From: Acidihalobacter aeolianus
GTDB lineage: Bacteria > Pseudomonadota > Gammaproteobacteria > DSM-5130 > Acidihalobacteraceae
NCBI RefSeq assembly: GCF_001753165.1
Contig: NZ_CP017448.1
Coordinates: 329,183 to 393,182 of the forward strand
Length of the DNA: 64,000 nt
Direction: 5' to 3'
Part shown: in pieces, positions 7,370 to 40,466 of the stretch
How the letters are laid out: every line of letters starts with the position of its first letter
How positions within the stretch are numbered: position 1 is the first letter of the stretch
Position numbers and translations under genes: made by a program
The notes under the pieces: model-generated
The model's input: the letters and a program-made list of their open reading frames with translations, nothing else
What the model was told of the DNA's origin: nothing
The model's database searches: none

Positions 7370-8683
7370 TCAGGAATGGCCGGCCAGCGGCAGCCAGGCC
7401 GCCAGCGCGAGCAGGGTGACGAGCAGGACCGGCGGGGTGATGACCAGCCCGACCTTCATGTACTGACCCCAGGTGATGGTCTCGCCCTTGCGTGCGAGCA
7501 CGTGCAGCCAGAGCAGGGTGGCGAGGCTGCCGATAGGGGTGAACTTGGGCCCTAGGTCGCAGCCGATCACGTTGGCGTAGATCATCGCTTCGCGTGCGGC
7601 GGCGCTGATCCCATGGCTTTGGTTGATGGCGAGCGCGCCGACCAGCACGCTCGGCATGTTGTTCATCACCGATGACAGTACGGCGCTGAGAAAGCCGGTG
7701 CCGAACGCCGCCACGGTCGGCCCGTGCCCGCCGAGCCATTCGAGCGCCTGGGCCAGATAGGCGGTGAGTCCGGCGTTGCGCAGGCCGTAGACCACGAGAT
7801 ACATGCCCAAGCTGAAGATCACGATCTGCCAGGGGGCTTCCTTGACCACCTTGCGCACGGGAATCACGCCGCCGCGCCCGCCCTGGTGCCAGCGTCCGGC
7901 AAGCCCGAGCAGGATCAGCGCGCCCGCGCCGGTGACCACGGAGACGGGAACGCCGAACTGCGCGGTCACGAAATAGGCCGCGAGCAGCACCGCGAGCAGC
8001 GGGAAGCTGGCGCGGAACACCAGCGGATCGCGGATCGCGTGGGCGGGGGCTTCCAGGCCCTCGAGGGCGTAGCGCGCCGGCAGGTCGCGGCGGAAATACA
8101 GCCACAAAACGACCAGCGTCGCTGCGAGCGCGGCGAGGTCCACGGGTATCATCACCCGCGCGTAATGGTCGAAGGGGATGGCGAAGTAATTCGCGCTGAC
8201 GATGTTGACCAGATTCGAGATGATCAGCGGCAGGCTGGTGGTATCGGCCACGAAACCGGTGCCGATCACGAAGGCCAGCGCGCCGGCCGGGTTGAAGCCC
8301 AGGCGCAGCAGGATGGCGAGCACGATCGGGGTGAGCAGCAAGGCGGCGCCGTCGTTCGCGAAGAAGGCCGCGATCAGCGCGCCGAGCAGAATGACGAGCG
8401 GGAACAGTCGCTTGCCGCTGCCGCCGCCCCAGCGTGCGACATGTAGCGCCGCCCAGTGGAAGAAGCCGGCCTCGTCCAGGGTCAGCGAGATGATGATCAG
8501 GCCGACGAAGGTGAAGGTCGCGTCCCACACGATATGCCAGACTATCGGGATGTCGTGCAGCGTGATCACGCCGGTGGCCAGCGCCAGCAGCGCGCCACCC
8601 GCGGCGCTCCAGCCGATGCCGAGTCCCCGCGGCTGCCAGATGACGAAGACGAGGGTGATCAGAAAGATCGCGAGGGCTAACAT
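7370..8683 (-). CDS. arsB: Arsenite efflux permease ArsB (ArsB/NhaD family)
   Basis: A 437-residue inner-membrane permease with about 11-12 helices. Family landmarks include [50 protein letters not shown] and [20 protein letters not shown]. It extrudes As(III) formed by the reductase encoded immediately downstream. It is divergent from arsR across a short region holding an ArsR-like palindrome, and no arsA or arsD accompanies it. Confidence 0.92.
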
Positions 8684-9712: not shown

Positions 9713-10514
9713 AGCCGACCACCCGGTCGCGCGGGCCGGCGGTGTCGCCGGAGTTGCGCAGGTCAAGGGTGTGCGCGTGCAGGCCGTGGCGTTGCGCGGC
9801 CAGCAGCAGGCCCTGCAGCGGGATGCGTCCGCAGGCCTGTTCGTAGCCGATCGCCTGAGGTGCGAGGCGTTCGATGGCCTGCGCGGTGAGCCGGTCGATG
9901 TGCCGGGCGTCGGCATAACCCAGATAGTGGCTGAGATCCGAGCTGATCACGAACAGGGTGCCCGGGTCGTCCCAGAAGGTCTCGATCAGGGCGGCGACTG
10001 CCTGCGGATCGGCGTCGCCCACGACCACGGGCAGCAGCCGGAAGTCGTCGCCCAGGACGGTCTGCAGAAAGGGCAGGTGCACCTCCAGACTATGTTCCTG
10101 CGCGTGAGCGAGATCGGATTCGATCACCTGGGGCAGCGTCAGCACTTGCTCGATGGCCTCGCGGTCAAGGCGGACGGAGCCGAGCGGGGTGCGAAAACTC
10201 GTCGTGCCGGGCACGGCCAGGCCGCGAAAGGTGACGCGATGCGACGGGCCGAGCAGTACCACCCGGCGCACGGGGGTGTCGCGGCGGCGCAGGCGCGCGT
10301 ACGCCGTGCCCGCAATGGGACCGGAGTAGACGTAGCCGGCATGCGGCACCACCAGCGCCCTGATGGGCAGGGTGCCGTCGGCGTCGTCGCCCGCCGCGAG
10401 GAAGGCCTCGACCTCGCGGCGAAGCTCGCCGGCGTCCGCAGGGTAAAACGTGCCGGCCACGGCCGGCGGTCGTTCTCCCTGGTTTTCCGGTATGCCATGA
10501 GTGTGTGTGGTCAT
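9690..10514 (-). CDS. amrB: AmmeMemoRadiSam system protein B (Memo family)
   Basis: 274 residues of the Memo family, related to class III aromatic-ring dioxygenases. Landmarks are VAGTFYPADAGELRR, VVPHAGYVYSGPIAGTAYA, LLGPSHRV, QEHSLEVHLPFLQ, SSDLSHYLGY and the C-terminal VVGYGAWTFA. The histidines of HAGY, SHRV, EHSLEVH and SDLSHY outline the iron-site pocket known in the family. The frame extends upstream, but MTTHTHG at 10514 leaves a normal N-terminus. It is divergent from the radical SAM gene by about 90 bases. Confidence 0.9.
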   Translation of the reverse strand: MTTHTHGIPENQGERPPAVAGTFYPADAGELRREVEAFLAAGDDADGTLPIRALVVPHAGYVYSGPIAGTAYARLRRRDTPVRRVVLLGPSHRVTFRGLAVPGTTSFRTPLGSVRLDREAIEQVLTLPQVIESDLAHAQEHSLEVHLPFLQTVLGDDFRLLPVVVGDADPQAVAALIETFWDDPGTLFVISSDLSHYLGYADARHIDRLTAQAIERLAPQAIGYEQACGRIPLQGLLLAAQRHGLHAHTLDLRNSGDTAGPRDRVVGYGAWTFA

Positions 10515-15669: not shown

Positions 15670-15710
15670 GTGACAGTGCCTGCTTGGTCGGGTATGCCGC
15701 GATATTCGGG

Positions 15711-15726
15711 TGGCATGCGGCTTGCT
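15711..15726 (+). promoter_or_regulatory. Sigma54 (-24/-12) promoter of the urease/cyanase operon
   Basis: Reads TGGCATG-CGGC-TTGCT, agreeing at every conserved position with TGGCAYR-N4-TTGCW; GG (15712-15713) and GC (15724-15725) are ten bases apart. Predicted transcription would start near 15737, only about six bases before the ureD ATG, so either the leader is very short or an additional upstream promoter serves this gene. Confidence 0.7.
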
Positions 15727-15742
15727 GGTTTCCGGCAACGTT

Positions 15743-16621
15743 ATGACGATCCAGGCCACCATTGCCGAGGCGTTTCCGTGCGCCGAATCCCGGGGTGGAG
15801 ACGCCGGCTGGCCGGCCTTCCTGGCGTTGCGCTTCGGCGCGCGCGGAGGGCACAGCTACGTGGCGTCGCGCCGGCATCACGGTCCGCTGCTGATCCAGCG
15901 ACCCTTCTACCCGGAGGGTGGCGTGTGCCACGCGTATCTGCTGCATCCGCCGGCAGGCGTGGTCGGCGGCGACAGCCTGCGCCTGGAGGCGGAGGTGGCG
16001 TCGGGCGCGCATGCGCTGATGACCACGCCCTCGGCGGGCAAGTTCTACTCCAGCCCGCAACGCATCGCCCGCGTCGCACAGCGGCTGCGCGTAGCGCCCG
16101 GGGCGGCACTGGAATGGCTGCCGCAGGAGACGATCCTGTTCGAGGGCGCCCGGGCCGAGCTCGACACCCGCGTCGAGCTGACGGGCGATGCCCGTTACTT
16201 CGGTTGGGAGGTCGTGTGCCTCGGCCGCCCTGCGGCGGGCACGGGCTTCGGCGAGGGGCATTGGCGACAGCACCTGGAGGTGCGCGTCGATGGGCGCCCG
16301 GTGCTGATCGAACGCCTGGCACTCGATGCCGGCGACGCCCTGCTCGAAGCCGCCTGGGGCTTGCAGGGACAGGGAGTGAGCGCCACGCTGGTGGCTGCAG
16401 GGTCCGGCGCCTGCGGACATCTGGATAGCTTGCACGAGGCCGGGTTGGGCACGCCGGCGCGTGGGTTCGGCGGGCTGACCGAAACGGGCGGATTGCTGGT
16501 GGGGCGTTTTCTCGGTGCCGAGGGCGCCGACGCGCGACAATGGTTCGAGGCCCTGTGGTGCTGGCTGCGGCCGCGCATATGCGGCGTGCCGGCCTGTCCG
16601 CCGCGCATTTGGCGGACCTGA
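15743..16621 (+). CDS. ureD: Urease accessory protein UreD
   Basis: 292 residues. UreD landmarks: [18 protein letters not shown] near the N-terminus, [23 protein letters not shown] and [13 protein letters not shown]. UreD/UreH forms the scaffold with UreF and UreG that loads nickel into apo-urease. ATG 15743 is the only good in-frame start before the conserved core; no clear Shine-Dalgarno precedes it, in keeping with the predicted very short leader. It heads the ureD-ureA-cynS-ureB-ureC run. The partners UreE, UreF and UreG are not encoded in this window. Confidence 0.92.
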
Positions 16622-16653
16622 GGGACGTCGAAGGATTTCAGTACGGAGACGAC

Positions 16654-16956
16654 ATGGAACTGCTACCCAAGGAAAAGGACAAGCTGCTGCTGTTCACCGC
16701 GGCGCTGCTGGCCGAGCGGCGCAAGGCGCGCGGTCTCAAGCTGAACTACCCGGAGGCCGTGGCCTACATCAGCGCGGCGATTCTCGAAGGCGCCCGCGAC
16801 GGCCGTACCGTAGCCGAGCTGATGGACTATGGCACGACCCTGCTCGGCCGCGACGACGTGATGGAAGGCATCCCGGAGATGATCCCCGAGGTGCAGGTCG
16901 AGGCGACCTTCCCCGATGGGACCAAGCTGGTCACTGTGCACCACCCGATCCCCTGA
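16654..16956 (+). CDS. ureA: Urease gamma subunit
   Basis: 100 residues, the exact family length. Starts [20 protein letters not shown] and contains [40 protein letters not shown] and the terminal LVTVHHPIP. The frame is open upstream, but this ATG is the conserved start. It is a structural subunit of cytosolic urease. It is separated from ureB by an intervening cyanase gene rather than directly abutting it. Confidence 0.96.
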
Positions 16957-16980: not shown

Positions 16981-17424
16981 ATGTATCGAGAAGAAGTCAC
17001 CGAGGCCGTGCTCGAGGCCAAGCGCGCCAAGGGCCTGACCTGGGCCGAACTGGCCAGGGCGGTCGGCCGCCATCCGGTGTGGACCACCTCCGCGCTGCTC
17101 GGTCAGCAGTCGATGAGCGAGGACGAGGCCACCGCTGCGGTTGCCTTGCTCGGGCTGGACCCGTCCTTTGTCGCGGCCTTGACGGAATGCCCGCTCAAGG
17201 GTTCGCTGGACAGCGACGTGCCCACCGACCCGCTGATCTACCGTCTGCACGAAATCACCCAGGTCTACGGCAGCACGATCAAGGCGCTGATCCACGAGGA
17301 ATTCGGCGACGGCATCATGAGCGCCATCGATTTCGAACTGGACATCGAGCGTGTCTCCGACCCCAAGGGCGACCGCGTGAAGATCACCTACAACGGCAAG
17401 TTCCTGCCCTACCGCAAGTGGTGA
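16981..17424 (+). CDS. cynS: Cyanate hydratase (cyanase) inside the urease operon
   Basis: 147 residues. The N-terminal helical domain ([20 protein letters not shown]) resembles an HTH fold, as in all cyanases. The C-terminal catalytic domain is [14 protein letters not shown] (active-site Arg and Glu) and [15 protein letters not shown] (active-site Ser), ending GKFLPYRKW. It converts cyanate and bicarbonate to ammonia and CO2. It lies between ureA (24-base gap, aggag ribosome site) and ureB (7-base gap) on the same strand, so it must be co-transcribed. Urea isomerises spontaneously to cyanate, which gives the placement biochemical sense. Confidence 0.96.
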
Positions 17425-17431
17425 CGCCGCG

Positions 17432-17739
17432 ATGATTCCCGGAGAACTGCTGCCCGCCGAGGGCGAGATCGAGATCAACGCCGACCGCGAGACGCGCAGC
17501 CTGCGCGTGGCCAACACCGGCGATCGGCCCATTCAGGTCGGCTCGCACTACCACTTCCACGAGACCAACGGCGCGCTGGACTTCGACCGCGAGGCCGCGC
17601 GCGGCTTCCGGCTGAACATCCCGGCCGGCACCGCCGTGCGCTTCGAGCCCGGCCAGACGCGCGAGGTCGAGCTGGTCGCGCTGGCCGGCGCGCGCACGGT
17701 CTACGGATTCAACGCACGCATCATGGGAGCACTGGACGC

Positions 17740-17743
<4 letters not shown>
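17432..17743 (+). CDS. ureB: Urease beta subunit
   Basis: 103 residues. Begins [20 protein letters not shown], with [19 protein letters not shown] and [20 protein letters not shown], the standard UreB core. Its stop overlaps the ureC start (ATGA), so the two are translationally coupled. Structural component of the alpha-beta-gamma urease core. Confidence 0.96.
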
Positions 17744-19446
<1,703 letters not shown>

Positions 19447-33907: not shown

Positions 33908-35086
33908 TCAGGGCAGCGCGCGCAGCGTCGGTTGGGGCGTTTTACCGGTGACGAAGCGGGCGTGCCGTGCCCAGGCATTGCCCAGCGCCACGCGTACCGC
34001 CGCAGGGTCGTCCGTGAACGTATCCTCGGCGGCCGTGCCGAGCGCCAGGCGTTCCGCCAGCGCGGCGGGGTCGTCCCGCACCAGCTGCGCCTCGCCGGAA
34101 AGGGCGGCCCTGGCGGCGGCGAAGCGGTCGCCCGCGAGCCCGAGCGCCGCCGCACGCTCCAGCGTCGCCTCCACCAGCGCGGCCACCGCCGCGGTCATGC
34201 CCGGCGGGCAGACCACCTGCAGCGCCCAGTAGCCGCCGTCGCTCCAGGTCTCGATGGAGGAATGCACGCCGTAGGCGAGGCCTCGCGCGCGCAGCTCGCG
34301 GAACAGCGGGGCGGCGAGCCCGCCGCACAGCGCACGCTCGGCGAGGCGCAGCGCCCCGGCGGCGGCGCTTCCGGCCAGCGGGGCGGGCAGCAGCCACAGC
34401 AGGCCGGGCGGACCGCCGTCGGTCAGGTATTCGTGCACGCCGCCGTGCCAGTGCCAGGCGTGCCCCGGGGTGGCGGAGGCGTCCGCAGGCAGGCGGGCGA
34501 GCGGTGCACAGGCAGCGGCGACTGCGCCGGGGTCCACGTCGCCGGCGACGCCCACGCGCAGCGCCGGGCCGCGCAGTTCGCGGGCGAGAAAACGCTGCAG
34601 GCAGGTGGGGGTGGCGTCGGCGGACAGGGCATCGACCGGCGCAGGGGCGGCGATGCCGAGGCAGCGCGCGAGGGCGAGTTCCAGCGCCGATCCGCCCTCG
34701 GCAAGGCCCTCGTGGCGGATGGCCTCGCGTTCGCGCGCGAAGCCGCCGGCGGTGACGAGATCGGCCCCGCGCGCGAGACGGGCGGCGAGCCGGGCCAGGG
34801 CATCGGGCAGCTCTGCGACCGGCACGTTCAGGTGGAACAGGCTGTGTTCGCGACCGCTCCAGGCATTGAGCTGCCCGCCCGTGGCGTCGAAGGCGGCGAG
34901 GTCGTGCGGATCGTCCGGAAACAGCAGATGCTCGGCGAGGTGCGCGAAGCCCGATTCGCCCGCCCGTTCGGCGCGCGAGCCGGCGCGCCAGGCGATGGCC
35001 GCGGCGGCGCCGGTCCGTCCGGGCATGGGGTGGATCGCAACGCCCACGCCGTTGGCCAGGAGCAGTTCGCGCGTGGCCGGGTTCAC
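33908..35086 (-). CDS. M16-family (insulinase-like) metallopeptidase
   Basis: 392 residues. The inverted zinc motif HxxEH is in FAHLAEHLLF, and the third ligand Glu lies in REREAIRHEG about 70 residues on. The C-terminal half (FRELRARGLAYGVHSSIE) is the M16_C domain. M16B enzymes normally form a closed clamp of two domains from one or two subunits; this is a single catalytic-type subunit. It starts one base after the nickel permease stop and is thus the last gene of the guanidine/nickel operon. Substrate unknown. Confidence 0.8.
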   Translation of the reverse strand: MNPATRELLLANGVGVAIHPMPGRTGAAAAIAWRAGSRAERAGESGFAHLAEHLLFPDDPHDLAAFDATGGQLNAWSGREHSLFHLNVPVAELPDALARLAARLARGADLVTAGGFAREREAIRHEGLAEGGSALELALARCLGIAAPAPVDALSADATPTCLQRFLARELRGPALRVGVAGDVDPGAVAAACAPLARLPADASATPGHAWHWHGGVHEYLTDGGPPGLLWLLPAPLAGSAAAGALRLAERALCGGLAAPLFRELRARGLAYGVHSSIETWSDGGYWALQVVCPPGMTAAVAALVEATLERAAALGLAGDRFAAARAALSGEAQLVRDDPAALAERLALGTAAEDTFTDDPAAVRVALGNAWARHARFVTGKTPQPTLRALP

Positions 35087-35087
35087 G

Positions 35088-36116
35088 TCACGTCCTTGCC
35101 GGCGTCAGCGCGCGGCGGTAGTAGGCGAAGGCCAGCGCCCAGCCGGACAGCATGATCACGGTCACGGCGACCCCGATCTGGCTGAAGTCCAGCGTCTCCA
35201 GCGAGGCCCACAGGCCGTGCCGCAGACCGAGCGCGGGGGCGAGCAGCTGCAGCCATTCGATCATCCCGATGGCCAGCGCCAGCAGCACCGACAGGCCGGT
35301 CAGCGCGGTGTTGAAGTAGAGCTTGCGCTCGGCGTCGGCCAGCGCCCAGTCGTAGGCGCGCAGCATGACGATGCCGTCCAGCGTGTCCATCAGGCTCATC
35401 GCCGCGGTGAACAGCAGCGGGAACACCATCACGCCCCACAGCGGCAGATGGCCGTTCTGCGCCGCGGCGGCGGAGATGCCGAGGATGGCGATTTCGCTCG
35501 CGGTGTCGAAGCCGAGGCCGAACAGCAGGCCGACGGGGTACATCTTCCAGCTGCGGTCGATGCGCCGGTAGACGCCGCGCAACAGGCGCGCGAACAGCCC
35601 GCGACGCTGCAGCAGCGATTCGAGCTCGGCGTCGGACGGCACCGGCTCGCCCCAGCGGCGGCAGGCGCGGAAGGCGCGCCACAGGCGCGAGAAGGCGAAC
35701 AGGTTGACCAGCCCGATCAGGGTGAGGAAGCCGGCCGAGACCAAGGTGCTGACCAGCCCGCCCCAGTGCTGCAGCATGGGCAGCTGCGCCTGGGTGGCGC
35801 GCACCGCGAGCACCAGCGCCGCAGTCAGGCCGAAGACCACGGTGGAATGGCCGAGCGAGAAGAACAGGCCGACGCCGAGCGGCCGCTGGCCGTCCTGGCG
35901 CAGCTTGCGGGTGACGTTGTCGATGGCGGCGATGTGGTCGGCGTCGAAGGCGTGGCGCAGACCGAAGCCGAAGGCCAGCGCGCCGATGCCGAGCAGCGCC
36001 GCATCGGCGCGGCCGAGACCGGCGAGCAGGCCCCAGGCGAGCAGGTTGAGGGCGACCAGGACGGTGGCGATGACCCAGGAGGGTCGTGTCCGGCGCGTGA
36101 TCGTGGTGACGGACAT
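35088..36116 (-). CDS. Nickel/cobalt transporter, NiCoT family
   Basis: 342 residues and eight membrane helices. The second helix holds the NiCoT signature HAFDADHIAAIDNVTR (HAxDADH). FFSLGHSTVVFGLTAALV and LGFDTASEIAILG are further family motifs. It imports Ni2+ (or Co2+) with high affinity. The 87-base gap to the ureohydrolase gene contains a strong hairpin but no obvious promoter, so the two are probably in one operon. Two nickel-dependent enzymes in this window (urease and the guanidine-hydrolase-type protein) would use the metal. Confidence 0.92.
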   Translation of the reverse strand: MSVTTITRRTRPSWVIATVLVALNLLAWGLLAGLGRADAALLGIGALAFGFGLRHAFDADHIAAIDNVTRKLRQDGQRPLGVGLFFSLGHSTVVFGLTAALVLAVRATQAQLPMLQHWGGLVSTLVSAGFLTLIGLVNLFAFSRLWRAFRACRRWGEPVPSDAELESLLQRRGLFARLLRGVYRRIDRSWKMYPVGLLFGLGFDTASEIAILGISAAAAQNGHLPLWGVMVFPLLFTAAMSLMDTLDGIVMLRAYDWALADAERKLYFNTALTGLSVLLALAIGMIEWLQLLAPALGLRHGLWASLETLDFSQIGVAVTVIMLSGWALAFAYYRRALTPART

Positions 36117-36145
36117 GCAGGACTCCTTAGTGTCGGTGCACGCGA

Positions 36146-36179
36146 CGGCCCGACCGCGCGTGTGCAGGCGGTCGGGCCG
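36146..36179 (-). repeat. Intercistronic hairpin between gdmH and the nickel transporter gene
   Basis: Perfect 12-bp stem (36146-36157 with 36168-36179; arms cggcccgaccgc and gcggtcgggccg) with a ten-base loop. No T run follows on either strand, so it is probably a partial attenuator or mRNA-stabilising element rather than a full terminator. Confidence 0.6.
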
Positions 36180-36203
36180 GGCTATGCCGCATCCGGCGGG
36201 CGG

Positions 36204-37394
36204 CTATTCGCCCCAGCCGCGGATGATGTGGCGATGGGCGCCCATCTTGCCGTGCGCGACCAGCGTACCGAGCACGTCGACGATCGCGCGGGTGGCCATC
36301 AGCGAGGTGATGTCGGAGATGTCGTAGGGCGGCGAGACCTCGACCACCTCCATGCCGCAGATGCCTTCCTTGGCCACCGCGCCGAGCAGGTAGAGGATTT
36401 CGCGCGGCAGGAAGCCGCCCGGCTCGGGCCAGCCGGTGCCGGGCACGAAGCCGGCGTCCACGCTGTCGATGTCGAAGCTCAGGTAGACCGCGTCGGCGTC
36501 CTTCCAGGCGTATTCCAGGGCGATCTCGGCGACCTTGTCGAGGCCGAGGCGCTCGACGTCGTGCATGGTGATGATGGTGGTCTCGCGATTGCGCGCTTCC
36601 TTGACCGCCTCGCGCGGAACCTGCCAGCCGCCGATGCCGATCTGCACCAGATTGGTGGCCGGCACGTTGGGCAGGTTGGTGGCGTGGAACCACGGTGTGG
36701 TGTGCATGCGCTCGTCGAGATCCTTTTCCTGGATGTCGGCGTGACGGTCGAAGTGGATGATGCCGATGCGCTTGTCGGTCTGCCGCGCGATGCCGCGCAC
36801 GGTGGCGAAGCCGATCGAGTGGTCGCCGCCGAGGATGATCGGCAGGGCGCCGCTGGCGAACACGTGGCCGACGGCGTTGCTGATCTGGTCGAAGGTCTTT
36901 TCGATGTTGGCGGGGATGGTGAAGATATCGCCGGCGTCGCACAGCTTCATCTGCTCGCGCAGATCCACGCCGATCTCGTAGTTGTACGGCGTGTACAGCG
37001 CGGAAATGCGGCGGATGCCCTGCGGTCCGAAGCGCGCGCCGGGGCGGTAGGTGGTGCCGCCGTCGAAGGGCGCGCCGATGATCGCGGCGTCGTACTTGCC
37101 GACGTCGCGCACGTCCTCGACGTAGGGCGCCTTCATGAAGGTGTTGATGCCGGCGAAGTGGGGCAGTTCGCCGCGCGCGAAGGTCGGGATGCTCTTGTCC
37201 TCGATGCTCTCCGCACCGGGCAGGCCCAGGCGCAGGCAGCGTTCCTGCTCGGCCTGCCAGGCGACGTCCGGAATATCCTTCTCGTGGTGCGCCATCTTCC
37301 AGCCCTGCAGACCGGAGCGGTCGAACGACGGGTGATGACGGTGGCCGGTGGCCGGGCGGGCGAACCCAGGTTGACGGGGTTTTTTGACGAACAT
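36204..37394 (-). CDS. gdmH: Guanidine hydrolase-type ureohydrolase (GdmH candidate)
   Basis: 396 residues, arginase/agmatinase superfamily. The binuclear metal ligands are in GGDHSIGF, HFDRHADIQ and SFDIDSVDAG. It has a long N-terminal extension (about 80 residues before KYDAAIIGAPFDGGTT), as in the Ni-dependent guanidine hydrolases of cyanobacteria (Sll1077 type), and the HFDRHADIQ block differs from the DAHTDT typical of agmatinases. It is the fourth gene of an operon led by a guanidine-I riboswitch, behind an ABC importer and before a nickel permease, so guanidine to urea plus ammonia is the best call. Agmatinase is the alternative. Start has aaggag eight bases upstream. Confidence 0.85.
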   Translation of the reverse strand: MFVKKPRQPGFARPATGHRHHPSFDRSGLQGWKMAHHEKDIPDVAWQAEQERCLRLGLPGAESIEDKSIPTFARGELPHFAGINTFMKAPYVEDVRDVGKYDAAIIGAPFDGGTTYRPGARFGPQGIRRISALYTPYNYEIGVDLREQMKLCDAGDIFTIPANIEKTFDQISNAVGHVFASGALPIILGGDHSIGFATVRGIARQTDKRIGIIHFDRHADIQEKDLDERMHTTPWFHATNLPNVPATNLVQIGIGGWQVPREAVKEARNRETTIITMHDVERLGLDKVAEIALEYAWKDADAVYLSFDIDSVDAGFVPGTGWPEPGGFLPREILYLLGAVAKEGICGMEVVEVSPPYDISDITSLMATRAIVDVLGTLVAHGKMGAHRHIIRGWGE

Positions 37395-37396
37395 GC

Positions 37397-38275
37397 TCAG
37401 TCTCCTTGGTTCGTGGAGGCGGTGTCACGCAGGTGCCGGGTCATGCGTTCGAGCATTTCCAGGTCGCGCTGTACGCCGGTGGTCTGCCGGATGCGGTCGA
37501 GGATGGTCTTCTTCTGCGCGAGGAAATCCGGCGCCAGCTTGAGGTCCTGATCGCGTTCCAGCGGGGGCGGCAGGTCGATGTCGTGAATCGAATCGACATG
37601 CCCGGGATTGGGGGCGAGTACCACCACGCGGTCGGCGAGATACACCGCTTCGTCGACGTCGTGGGTGACGAACACGATGGTGGTCTTTTCCAGTTCGAAG
37701 ACGTGCAGGATGAGGTCGTGCATCACCTCGCGGGTCTGCGCGTCCAGCGCCCCGAAGGGCTCGTCCATCAGCAGCACCTCGGGGCGCGACATGAGCGCGC
37801 GGGCGATGGCCACGCGCTGGCGCATGCCGCCGGAGAGGGCGTTGGGGTAGCTGTCCTTGACCTTTTCCAGACCCATCAGGGACAGCAGCGCATAGGAGCG
37901 GTCCACGGCCGAGGCGGCCTCGGCCGTGGACGCGCCACGTGCGTGTGAATTCAGCTGGCGGCAGAAGCGGATGTTCTCGATCACCGTCAGCCAGGGGTAG
38001 AGGCTGTAGTCCTGGAACACCATCACGCGGTCCTTGCCGGGGCCGCGCACGGTGCGGCCGTCGACCAGGATCTCGCCCTCGGTAAGGGTTTCCAGCCCGC
38101 CGATGATGCGCAGCAGGGTCGATTTGCCGCAGCCGGAGGCGCCGACCAGGGCGAGGAATTCGTTGGGGCGCACCTCGAGATCGATATTGTCGAGGGCGTG
38201 AAACTCGCGGCCCTTGGTGTAGAAATGCTTGCCGAGGCCGCGGACGGCGATCTTGGGTTCGCTGGCGGGATTCAT
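37397..38275 (-). CDS. ABC transporter ATP-binding protein (guanidine uptake candidate)
   Basis: 292 residues. Walker A GASGCGKS, signature LSGGMRQRVAIARAL, Walker B VLLMDEPFGALD and H-loop FVTHDVDEAV place it in the nitrate/sulfonate/taurine (SsuB/TauB) importer branch. A C-terminal extension (residues 255-292) is family-typical. The stop is two bases before the gdmH start. The substrate, inferred from riboswitch and gdmH, is guanidine. Confidence 0.9.
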   Translation of the reverse strand: MNPASEPKIAVRGLGKHFYTKGREFHALDNIDLEVRPNEFLALVGASGCGKSTLLRIIGGLETLTEGEILVDGRTVRGPGKDRVMVFQDYSLYPWLTVIENIRFCRQLNSHARGASTAEAASAVDRSYALLSLMGLEKVKDSYPNALSGGMRQRVAIARALMSRPEVLLMDEPFGALDAQTREVMHDLILHVFELEKTTIVFVTHDVDEAVYLADRVVVLAPNPGHVDSIHDIDLPPPLERDQDLKLAPDFLAQKKTILDRIRQTTGVQRDLEMLERMTRHLRDTASTNQGD

Positions 38276-38285
38276 GCCGGTCTCC

Positions 38286-39176
38286 TCAGGCGCGGTGCAG
38301 CCAGGGGAAGGCCCGGCGGTGCAGGAAGCGGAACAGCTGATCCATGATCAGGCCGATGGTGCCGATCAGCAGGATGCCGCCGAAGATCTTGCCGGTCTGC
38401 AGGAAGCGCTGTGCCTGCAGGATGGCGTAGCCGAGCCCCGAGTTGGCGGCCACCATTTCGGCCACGACCAGGTAGGTCCAGGCCCAGCCGAGGGTGACGC
38501 GCAGGGTGTCGACGATGTCCGGCATCGCGGAGCGGAAGATCACTCGGGTGACGATCTCCGAGCGGCTGGCGCCCATCGTCTGTGCGGCCTCGATCTGCGC
38601 GGTCGGCACGTGGCGCACGTTCTCGGAAATCATCAGCACCATCTGGAAGAAGGTGCCGATCCAGATGATGCTGATCTTGGCGCCCTCGCCGATGCCCACC
38701 CACAGCAGCACCAGCGGCACGAAGGCCACCGCCGGCAGGTAGCGGGCAAACTCGACCATGGGCTCGAAGAAGGCCTGCACCGGCCGGTAGCTGCCGATGT
38801 ACAGGCCGAGCGGAATCGCCATCACCGCGGAGAGCACGAAGCCGGCGGTGACGCGGTAGATGCTGATCTCGGTGTCGGCGATCAGATTGCCCTGCGCATA
38901 CCAGGCCTGCAGGCGGGAAAGCACCTCCGGCGGCGAGGGCAGGAATAGTTGCGGCACCAGGCCGCTGTCGGACAGTCCCCACCAGCTGCCCAGCATCAGC
39001 ACGAAGCTGAACAGGGCGATGGAGACGTATTGCCAGCGCGGCAGCGTGCCGCGCACGGCCCATAAAACGCCCCGACGCGCGGCCCGGCCGGCACCTCCGC
39101 CCTGGCCCGCCGCAGGGAGTGCGGGGTCCAGGGTTTCGGTCGCCGGATTCAGGGAGGTCTCACGTATTGCGCTCAT
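38286..39176 (-). CDS. ABC transporter permease (guanidine uptake candidate)
   Basis: 296 residues, six or so membrane helices, SsuC/TauC type. The coupling-helix motif EAAQTMGASRSEIVTRVIF (EAA loop) is clear, with RVTAGFVLSAVMAIPLGLYI earlier. The N-terminal 40 residues are polar and variable. It is ten bases upstream of the ATPase gene on the same strand. Confidence 0.9.
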   Translation of the reverse strand: MSAIRETSLNPATETLDPALPAAGQGGGAGRAARRGVLWAVRGTLPRWQYVSIALFSFVLMLGSWWGLSDSGLVPQLFLPSPPEVLSRLQAWYAQGNLIADTEISIYRVTAGFVLSAVMAIPLGLYIGSYRPVQAFFEPMVEFARYLPAVAFVPLVLLWVGIGEGAKISIIWIGTFFQMVLMISENVRHVPTAQIEAAQTMGASRSEIVTRVIFRSAMPDIVDTLRVTLGWAWTYLVVAEMVAANSGLGYAILQAQRFLQTGKIFGGILLIGTIGLIMDQLFRFLHRRAFPWLHRA

Positions 39177-39226
39177 CTCGCACCTCGCTCTTGAGTTGGG
39201 TTGCCGGGCCGCGCGGGGGTATCAGC

Positions 39227-40207
39227 TCACTTCGCTGCCATGTCGACGAACTTCGGGTCGATGAACATCGCCGGGTCGGGCGTCTTGGTGATCGCCTTCG
39301 ACTCGATCAGGAACTTCCCGGTATCCGCCGTGCTGTTGTACAGCGACACCGAGGAGGTTCCCGGCTTCATCGCCTCGCGGTTCAGCTTGGCGCCGAACAG
39401 GCGCGTTCCCGCCAGCGACAGGGCGTACTCCTTGGGGTTCAGACCCACGTGGGGCGCCATGATCTTCGCCGCGGCCTCGGGATGGGCGTGCACGAAGCGG
39501 ACCACCGCGAACCAGGCCTTGGCCAGACCCTCGAAGTCCTTGGCATGCTTCTTCAGTGAGGCGTCGCGTGCGGCGACGATGTCAGGGATCAGGCCGGGTG
39601 CGTCCTTGCTGGTGAACAGCGCATGACCCTTGTGGCTGTTTTCGATACGGTTGATCCAGGGATTCCACACGCCGGCGGCGTCGATGCGGCCGGAGATCAG
39701 CGCGGCGGCGGCGTCACCGGTGCTCATGTTGACGATCTTCACGTCGCTCGGCTTGAGGCCGTGCATCTTCATCGCGTAATCGTCGAGATAGTTCTCGATC
39801 GAATACTGCTCCAGGCCCAGCGTCTTGCCCTTGAGGTCGGCAAAGGTCTTGATCGAGTTGTTCACCATCAGCGCGTCGTTGCCCGCCGAGTTATCGGTGA
39901 CCAGGACGACTTTGATCGGCACGCCCTTCTCCAGCGGGGCCAGGGTATCGATCAGGGCCTGGCTGTTGGCGTCGAGCTGGCCGGCCGACAGGGCGTTGAC
40001 CGAGTCGATGTAGTTCGGGAACCACACCAGCTTCACGTGCGCCCCGTACTTTTTGAAGTAACCCTTCTCCTTGGCGATGTACCAGGCCACCCAGCCTGGC
40101 CAGTCGCTGATGCCGAGAGTGATCTCGGCGCGCGCGGTGGACATGAACATCACCGGCGCGAGCAGGGCCAGCATCAGGGTGGCGATCATTTTCTTGCTGC
40201 GTTTCAT
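39227..40207 (-). CDS. ABC transporter periplasmic substrate-binding protein (guanidine candidate)
   Basis: 326 residues of the NMT1/SsuA-like family. A signal peptide (MKRSKKMIATLMLALLAP, cleavage near ARA|EIT) precedes ITLGISDWPGWVAWYIAKEK, SAGQLDANSQALIDTLAPLE and AAALISGRIDAAGVWNPWIN, the ligand-pocket segments. It is the first coding gene after the riboswitch terminator, so its expression would require guanidine. Homologues beside gdmH in cyanobacteria bind guanidine; specificity here is inferred from the riboswitch. Confidence 0.88.
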   Translation of the reverse strand: MKRSKKMIATLMLALLAPVMFMSTARAEITLGISDWPGWVAWYIAKEKGYFKKYGAHVKLVWFPNYIDSVNALSAGQLDANSQALIDTLAPLEKGVPIKVVLVTDNSAGNDALMVNNSIKTFADLKGKTLGLEQYSIENYLDDYAMKMHGLKPSDVKIVNMSTGDAAAALISGRIDAAGVWNPWINRIENSHKGHALFTSKDAPGLIPDIVAARDASLKKHAKDFEGLAKAWFAVVRFVHAHPEAAAKIMAPHVGLNPKEYALSLAGTRLFGAKLNREAMKPGTSSVSLYNSTADTGKFLIESKAITKTPDPAMFIDPKFVDMAAK

Positions 40208-40262
40208 GGTTTCAGCTCCATGTTGAGGTGAACCGCTGGTGTCGGGCGTTTTTGCCCGCGCG

Positions 40263-40312
40263 AAAAAAAAGCCCGGGGAGGAATACGTGCGTATTCGCTC
40301 TCCCGGGCTTTT
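40263..40312 (-). terminator. Riboswitch-controlled intrinsic terminator
   Basis: On the minus strand, GCCCGGG (40308-40302) pairs with CCCGGGC (40277-40271), with an additional inner stem gaatac/gtattc, followed by eight T residues (40270-40263). The left arm is also part of the conserved 3' end of the aptamer, so ligand binding and terminator formation exclude each other: an ON switch. Confidence 0.92.
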
Positions 40313-40395
40313 ATCCCGCCGTGTAGCCCCGCATCCGAGGCCGGCGACTCTCGGTCCAGACCCCGGGTTTGTGCGGGCGGAACCCTAGTCGCCTT
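40299..40395 (-). ncRNA. Guanidine-I riboswitch (ykkC-yxkD class)
   Basis: Read on the minus strand, the leader contains in order ACTAGGGTTCCG (40389-40378), GGTCTGGACCGAGAG (40362-40348), CTACACGGCGGGATAAAAGC (40326-40307) and CCGGGAGA (40306-40299). These are the signature blocks of the guanidine-I aptamer in the correct order and spacing. It overlaps a terminator and is about 90 bases upstream of the substrate-binding protein gene. In its ligand-bound form it should allow transcription of the ABC-gdmH-nickel transporter operon. Confidence 0.96.
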
Positions 40396-40466
40396 GATTG
40401 GTATTGGGCCGTTGCGTCAGCTTGCGGCGGTATCTCCGGTGCGTGTTGTCTCTTGTCTGCAAGGCA

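Follow-up and report, generated by a model that had tools for sequence, protein, structure and literature searches.

The 64,000-nucleotide stretch of Acidihalobacter aeolianus DNA analyzed here (the window; positions 329,183-393,182 of contig C1, NZ_CP017448.1, genome label G000) carries on its minus strand six genes behind a guanidine-I riboswitch, and we read these, with a probability of about 0.88, as a guanidine-inducible assimilation operon in which a NiCoT nickel/cobalt permease is co-transcribed with the guanidine hydrolase GdmH. The genome measures 3.53 Mb and is estimated to be 99.99% complete. In the mechanism that we propose, the leader RNA would fold its terminator when guanidine is lacking, and transcription would stop; guanidine would stabilize the last helix of the aptamer, block the terminator and so permit transcription of the operon. 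Guanidine taken up by an ATP-binding cassette (ABC) importer would be hydrolyzed by GdmH, yielding ammonium and urea, and the latter would be split by urease, whose genes lie partly in the window (ureDABC) and partly beyond its end (ureE, ureF and a UreG-like gene). GdmH and urease would both need nickel, and a NiCoT on the same transcript would raise nickel uptake as the apo-enzyme appears, with GdmH loaded probably by the HypA and HypB of a hydrogenase-type cluster, or by nickel taken up directly.

Riboswitch, Terminator and Gene Order

A covariance-model search of the window matched RF00442 over its full length (model positions 1-107 of 107), and a score of 87.8 bits against a gathering threshold of 63, with E 2.3e-14, rules out a chance match; the guanidine-I aptamer recognized in an earlier sequence-only reading of this DNA is thereby confirmed. 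That reading had also placed a mutually exclusive terminator behind the aptamer, and we recovered it: a 61-nt segment (40318 to 40258) folds with an energy of -35.7 kcal/mol (z -6.4; none of 200 shuffles was as good). Its hairpin core takes up AAAAGCCCGGG, in which the 3' strand of the last aptamer helix lies; terminator and helix are therefore mutually exclusive. The hairpin is common to all three genomes of the genus that were compared (G000, G263 and G369), and a matching hairpin stands behind a second guanidine-I riboswitch of the same genome. A simple consensus terminator scanner did not list the riboswitch terminator, probably owing to the interrupted stem. Guanidine would be the ligand of this riboswitch and control would be transcriptional.

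Among related gdmH loci, for which we took the best 80 of 589 confirmed loci (the scope of all counts out of 80 below), a guanidine-I riboswitch above the cut-off stands at 16 of the 23 named loci scanned. Five of the seven loci without one (L020, L022, L028, L065 and L073) start, by tblastn positions, inside or just before the importer, and at L008 and L011 none was found at the gdmH locus; all four further loci (L139, L141, L143 and L144) have it. Locus L009 carries two guanidine-I riboswitches (7792-7889 and 10356-10458), one for a gdmH-NiCoT pair and one for the ABC importer. No T-run terminator was detected by script after the first of these, which may act through another expression platform.

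Behind the riboswitch and terminator of the window follow the periplasmic binding protein, permease and ATPase of the importer, gdmH, NiCoT and an M16 peptidase, all on the minus strand and, by Pfam and NCBIfam matches, at the places where the sequence-only reading had put them (Table 1). The gaps between successive genes are 50, 10, 2, 87 and 1 nt; as these are short and the genes share a strand, a single transcript for all six is likely. The importer combines an SsuA-family binding protein, above the TIGR01728 cut-off, with a PF00528 permease and a PF00005 ATPase, and guanidine would be its substrate.

Table 1. Features of the window discussed in the text, in window coordinates.
Feature	Position	Strand	Basis
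Guanidine-I riboswitch aptamer	40298-40399	-	RF00442 at 87.8 bits (threshold 63; E 2.3e-14 for the 64 kb)
Intrinsic terminator, exclusive with the aptamer's last helix	40267-40312 (hairpin core)	-	fold of 40318-40258
ABC importer periplasmic binding protein, SsuA family (putative guanidine binder)	39227-40207	-	TIGR01728 188.1 bits, cut-off 163.5; PF09084 95.2 bits
ABC importer permease	38286-39176	-	PF00528 94 bits
ABC importer ATPase	37397-38275	-	PF00005 117.6 bits; best NCBIfam ntrCD 231.2, under cut-off 291.8
gdmH, guanidine hydrolase (guanidinase)	36204-37394	-	similarity to 7esr and 9fek; T115 and W322; clade
NiCoT nickel/cobalt permease	35088-36116	-	TIGR00802 341.9 bits, cut-off 333.05; PF03824 284.1 bits, cut-off 27.7
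M16 zinc peptidase, last operon gene	33908-35086	-	PF00675 37.1 bits; PF05193 41.6 bits
ureD, urease accessory	15710-16621	+	PF01774 192.5 bits
ureA, urease gamma	16540-16956	+	PF00547 159 bits
ureB, urease beta	17432-17743	+	PF00699 154.3 bits
ureC, urease alpha	17740-19446	+	PF00449 187.5 bits; PF01979 289.8 bits

Identity of the Guanidine Hydrolase

The window enzyme scored 558 bits to Synechocystis GdmH (7esr) and 549 bits to the guanidinase of Nitrospira inopinata (9fek), the next solved enzyme being proclavaminate amidinohydrolase at 180.6 bits, and it is identical to 7esr at 239 of 347 residues (68.9%). Alignment of its residues 38-384 with residues 22-370 of 7esr corroborates the GdmH-type N-terminal extension that had been noticed before. 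According to PMC11410670, guanidine specificity is set by Thr97 and Trp305 in Synechocystis numbering; the corresponding residues here are T115 and W322 (the 7esr chain being taken as offset by 2), and in three other ureohydrolases aligned the Trp position is occupied by Thr. In a tree of 86 rows, made up of 81 gdmH rows, 7esr, 9fek and, on long outgroup branches, proclavaminate amidinohydrolase, guanidinobutyrase and guanidinopropionase, the gdmH rows together with 7esr and 9fek split from the other three at 100/100. The enzyme thus groups with GdmH and the N. inopinata guanidinase in a tree that holds no agmatinase. It also missed the cut-offs of the agmatinase models TIGR01230 (159.5 against 174.3) and NF002564 (208.2 against 302), and these scores, the similarity to 7esr and 9fek, the specificity residues and the clade together rule out an agmatinase or arginase.

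No second ureohydrolase was found in the genome at E <=0.001. Among 37 relatives searched, gdmH is present in three, which are all three members of the genus, and in none of the other 34. The gene shows 15 silent and, over 396 codons, no changing differences from that of G263; the comparison with G369 gives 78 silent and 11 changing ones, a pattern that points to purifying selection within the genus.

We consider it very improbable that the in vivo substrate of the ureohydrolase is some other guanidino compound, with guanidine serving the operon as a signal alone. Such a role would accord with the importer family, in which the named members transport sulfonates, taurine, nitrate or urea, and with the high reported Km (13.6 mM) of a related guanidinase, whose authors discuss this alternative (PMC11410670); it should be added, as a point against guanidine as the transported substrate, that the binding protein of the importer matched no equivalog model of a guanidine-binding protein. 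However, both specificity residues are present, the enzyme groups with characterized guanidinases, no other ureohydrolase turned up in the genome, and guanidine-I riboswitches recur at the gdmH loci scanned. Guanidine assimilation, as proposed in the sequence-only reading, is therefore supported, and the families concerned suggest guanidine as the ligand and as the compound hydrolyzed, and nickel as the metal of the enzyme.

Nickel Supply and the Genes That Follow gdmH

The gene directly behind gdmH, in the same reading direction, passes the cut-offs of both TIGR00802 and PF03824, in agreement with its earlier assignment as a NiCoT transporter. Its product contains HAFDADH at residue 55 as well as LGFDTASE, the former matching HX4DH, which we take to be the NiCoT signature. 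It is 95% identical over 341 residues to the protein of G263, and 90% over 301 plus 80% over 51 residues to that of G369. The earlier remark that HypA/HypB-like genes are missing holds at the locus but not in the genome, where both are found about 1.9 Mb away near a second NiCoT. There is one HypA match (C1:2291823, 121.7 bits). The gene behind it is rich in His and encodes a CobW/HypB/UreG domain (87.2 bits); then come a frame resembling a regulator, the second NiCoT (273.5 bits) and HypD (401.7 bits). By its gene families this cluster is of the hydrogenase-maturation type, and its chaperones may act on GdmH in trans; no HupE was found in the genome. To regard NiCoT as a replacement for the chaperones goes beyond what the arrangement of the locus supports, because a permease raises cellular nickel while a chaperone loads the enzyme, and because urease needs nickel as well.

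Across the 80 related loci, the gene that follows gdmH on the same strand encodes a protein of a small unnamed family, here called HisR, in 65, a NicO-like membrane protein in seven, NiCoT in one (L009) and UreE in one (L011), so that a nickel-related or candidate nickel gene follows in 74. No nickel gene was recognized after gdmH in the remaining six, two of which (L006 and L015) run into UreD. The NicO-like assignment is weak: among six members scored, that of L016 alone exceeds the NicO cut-off, while three fall below it and two match only DsbD_2, L012 being a seventh member outside the six. HypA was found at none of the 80 loci by a one-sequence search and a motif search, the single seed limiting sensitivity, and a HypB seed gave weak matches at seven, three of them on HisR frames and the others away from gdmH. 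In the gdmH tree, HisR represents one gain (65 rows, 100/99) and the NicO-like proteins two. This is the less expected, comparative outcome of the analysis: the gene after gdmH varies by lineage and is usually a nickel-related or candidate nickel gene, HisR among them.

The presence of urease, also a nickel enzyme, in the window raises the question of whether NiCoT serves mainly urease, or a general nickel or cobalt demand, and came to lie beside gdmH by accident of operon growth. The second NiCoT, which adjoins the HypA, HypB-like and HypD genes, suggests that each paralogue may supply a different enzyme; the pairing of NiCoT with gdmH is rare (one of the 80 loci), and in G369 the tail of NiCoT is cut short. 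Nevertheless, we hold this explanation to be unlikely, as NiCoT shares its guanidine riboswitch with gdmH in the genus, and at L009, where a 4-nt overlap joins it to the stop codon of gdmH, the pair has a riboswitch separate from that of the importer. The NicO-like membrane proteins, which belong to a different group, occupy the same place at seven of the 80 loci, and NiCoT is conserved within the genus at the identities given above. We thus favor a co-transcribed NiCoT that would contribute to the loading of GdmH.

A number of observations weigh against the latter reading. NiCoT did not reach the NicT nickel equivalog NF052500 (335.4 against 450), and nickel and cobalt preference are not separable by sequence. 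The scanner listed no terminator site in the gap between gdmH and NiCoT, but the same scanner had missed the terminator of the riboswitch itself. In G369 (L119, from 11550 plus) the NiCoT frame has 317 residues against 342 in the window, and one base is missing or extra in the alignment; either the tail is truncated or the sequence contains an error. Outside this genus, NiCoT was seen next to gdmH at L009 alone (a locus identical to G156 over 4161 bases), and the genus and L009 do not group as sisters in the tree, which may still be compatible with one origin of both gdmH-NiCoT pairs. Finally, no nickel or urease gene was recognized directly after gdmH at L007, L008, L010 and L013, and a linked permease is apparently not required everywhere.

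A Recurrent M16 Peptidase

The genome has a single PF00675 match, encoded by the gene that closes the operon. It has HLAEH at residue 49, and the HxxEH motif and a distal Glu, which we take to form the M16 zinc site, are kept in all 13 sequences aligned. Within the class, M16 stands beside guanidine genes in eight of nine gdmH genomes (G000, G263, G369, G310, G055, G150, G262 and G156), the ninth, G036, having gdmH on a 6.6-kb contig. In the six other gdmH genomes of the phylum, each with three M16 matches, none lies beside gdmH. The gene occurs behind the importer ATPase on the same strand (L007, L139 and L141), beside the importer in opposite orientation (L013, L017, L018, L143 and L144) and beside gdmH itself (L009).

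The M16 peptidase of the operon is probably a maturation or quality-control protease of the guanidine pathway. An appreciable, though smaller, chance must be allowed for M16 being an unrelated neighbor that is read through from the operon. The gene evolves fast, with 147 changing and 90 silent codon differences to G263 (none and 15 for gdmH), and its family scores are low, that of G156 falling below the Pfam cut-off (20.7 against 22.3 bits). Moreover, a homologue was seen at only 6 of the 15 named loci of gammaproteobacterial type, and at 7 of the 80 overall in the stretches examined. L032, which carries HisR, has an M16 homologue nearby, so that the two partners are not strictly exclusive, which likewise speaks against our reading. 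On the other side stand the sole copy in this genome, the contrast of eight in nine same-class genomes with none in six others, the recurrence in different arrangements and the intact zinc-site residues. A protease belonging to the guanidine pathway remains our preferred interpretation.

The HisR Family

HisR genes (within L014-L085; e.g., L014:9196-9600 and L029:9185-9670) start at most 50 nt from the gdmH stop in 57 of the 65 loci; at L032 the gene lies 3.6 kb downstream, behind the importer genes. The proteins contain a median of 20 His (12.7% of residues), with at least nine in 59 of the 65, and at L014 the His run is at the opposite end. The folded part was modeled at pLDDT 91.9. Comparison with the PDB gave no convincing relative, neither by Foldseek (best E 0.28 for the whole model and 0.32 for the domain alone) nor by VIA-align (Z at most 2.9) nor by sequence profile (best E 0.13); the structural comparisons do not amount to evidence of a new fold. 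Likewise, when 45 of the 65 members were searched against Pfam and NCBIfam, no family at E <=0.1 was shared by two or more of them. We found no description of HisR in the literature searched, though one may exist in earlier guanidine papers or subscription journals.

A profile built from 30 members (E <=1e-6) was run together with GdmH (E <=1e-80) against a sample of 398 genomes of the phylum. HisR was detected in six and GdmH in seven, namely the same six plus the present genome, in which the profile found no HisR. By match coordinates, the two genes of each of the six pairs are same-strand neighbors separated by no more than about 380 nt. The chance of such an overlap is ~1e-12 if kinship is ignored, and the six genomes represent six genera in four families. 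These results suggest that HisR may handle nickel for GdmH. Speaking against this, six of the 65 members have fewer than nine His, and that of L024 has one, the minimum.

We put forward, tentatively and as the less probable side of the question, a joint interpretation in which GdmH outside the cyanobacteria has undescribed partners. These would be HisR as a GdmH-dedicated nickel chaperone in alphaproteobacteria and some others, and NiCoT or NicO-like permeases plus M16 (for maturation or turnover) in gammaproteobacteria, the present genome among them; in this genus, a membrane di-iron hydroxylase of a second operon would in addition release guanidine for GdmH from a substituted guanidine.

A Second Guanidine-I Operon Outside the Window

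The second guanidine-I riboswitch lies 6 kb past the window end (C1:399123-399222 minus, L004 9124-9223, 92.2 bits). The genes that it precedes encode a binding protein, a membrane protein that resembles fatty-acid desaturases and has three His boxes, an SDR protein and a creatininase (358.6 bits against a cut-off of 235), followed by proteins similar to biuret hydrolase and to lactonases. Relatives of the desaturase-like protein occur in 12 of 369 genomes of the class, this one included, and one of the 11 others belongs to the same genus. At 6 of these 11 loci a guanidine-I or guanidine-II riboswitch is present. We suggest that the desaturase-like protein could hydroxylate a substituted guanidine and so set guanidine free, as does, in another enzyme family, the methylguanidine hydroxylase described in PMC12508155. 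It counts against this proposal that the remaining 5 of the 11 loci showed no guanidine riboswitch at E <=1.

At L113 the desaturase-like gene is accompanied by two DUF1989 proteins, a carboxyltransferase and allophanate hydrolase, a gene set that resembles the guanidine carboxylase pathway described in PMC11410670 and PMC12508155. The desaturase-like gene directly precedes a lactonase-like gene of the metallo-beta-lactamase fold at L108, L109, L110 and L111 (4 of 10 loci outside the genus), and at L106 both belong to a single gene run without being adjacent.

Urease and the Nitrogen Route

The ureDABC genes form an operon separate from that of gdmH in the same window. About 10 kb beyond the window end, at ~C1:403.1-404.4 kb, lie ureE and ureF, followed by a gene of the CobW/HypB/UreG family that is, by position and sequence, UreG. 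With these genes present, the route from guanidine through urea to ammonium is complete on paper, and ureDABC in the window supports the use of all three guanidine nitrogens.

A cyanate lyase gene (PF02560, 122.5 bits; 16981-17424, plus strand) is inserted in the urease operon between ureA and ureB. The Rfam model 5_ureB_sRNA matches antisense to ureC (17894-18176 minus, 119.5 bits); since it also matches several other urease loci, the hit probably reflects conserved urease coding sequence and not a small RNA. Guanidinase-urease clusters, in which UreD comes after gdmH either immediately or with a NicO-like gene or other small stretch between them, occur at L006, L015, L017, L018, L139, L141, L143 and L144.

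Comparison with Known Systems

Judged by what can be read directly from the DNA, that is, the riboswitch and terminator, gene order and families, specificity residues and conservation within the genus, this is a known kind of system, and its variation is a linked NiCoT and M16 where HypA/HypB are linked elsewhere. Its significance lies in nickel delivery. In PMC11410670, no dedicated nickel-loading protein is reported to have been found for the comammox guanidinase, and the recombinant enzyme was possibly only partly metal-loaded. A co-regulated permease, HisR and the recurrent M16 are candidates for a part in supplying guanidinases outside the cyanobacteria with nickel, and a dedicated loading partner of GdmH, if real, would be immediately useful because recombinant guanidinase may be incompletely charged with metal.

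Published descriptions allow three comparisons. The Synechocystis sll1077 (gdmH) operon shares with the present one the guanidine-I riboswitch, the ABC importer, a GdmH at the identity given above and a urease encoded elsewhere in the genome (PMC12186494, PMC11271267, PMC11410670). Whereas Synechocystis has the chaperones GhaA and GhaB, the window operon has no linked HypA/HypB homologues and has NiCoT and M16 instead. The Nitrospira inopinata locus likewise has a guanidine-I riboswitch and no linked chaperones, its guanidinase falls in the same clade and has Thr and Trp at the key sites, and urease is present; it differs in having an APC permease instead of an ABC importer, and in lacking a recognized loading protein where this organism has NiCoT in the operon and HypA plus a HypB-like gene in the genome (PMC11410670). 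Lastly, the metformin hydrolase operons (hypA, hypB, hupE) differ from the window in their HupE permease, linked chaperones, heteromeric enzyme and other substrate, but they too have a nickel transporter gene directly downstream of a nickel-dependent ureohydrolase, so that the pairing of a transporter with a nickel ureohydrolase has a published precedent (PMC11399263).

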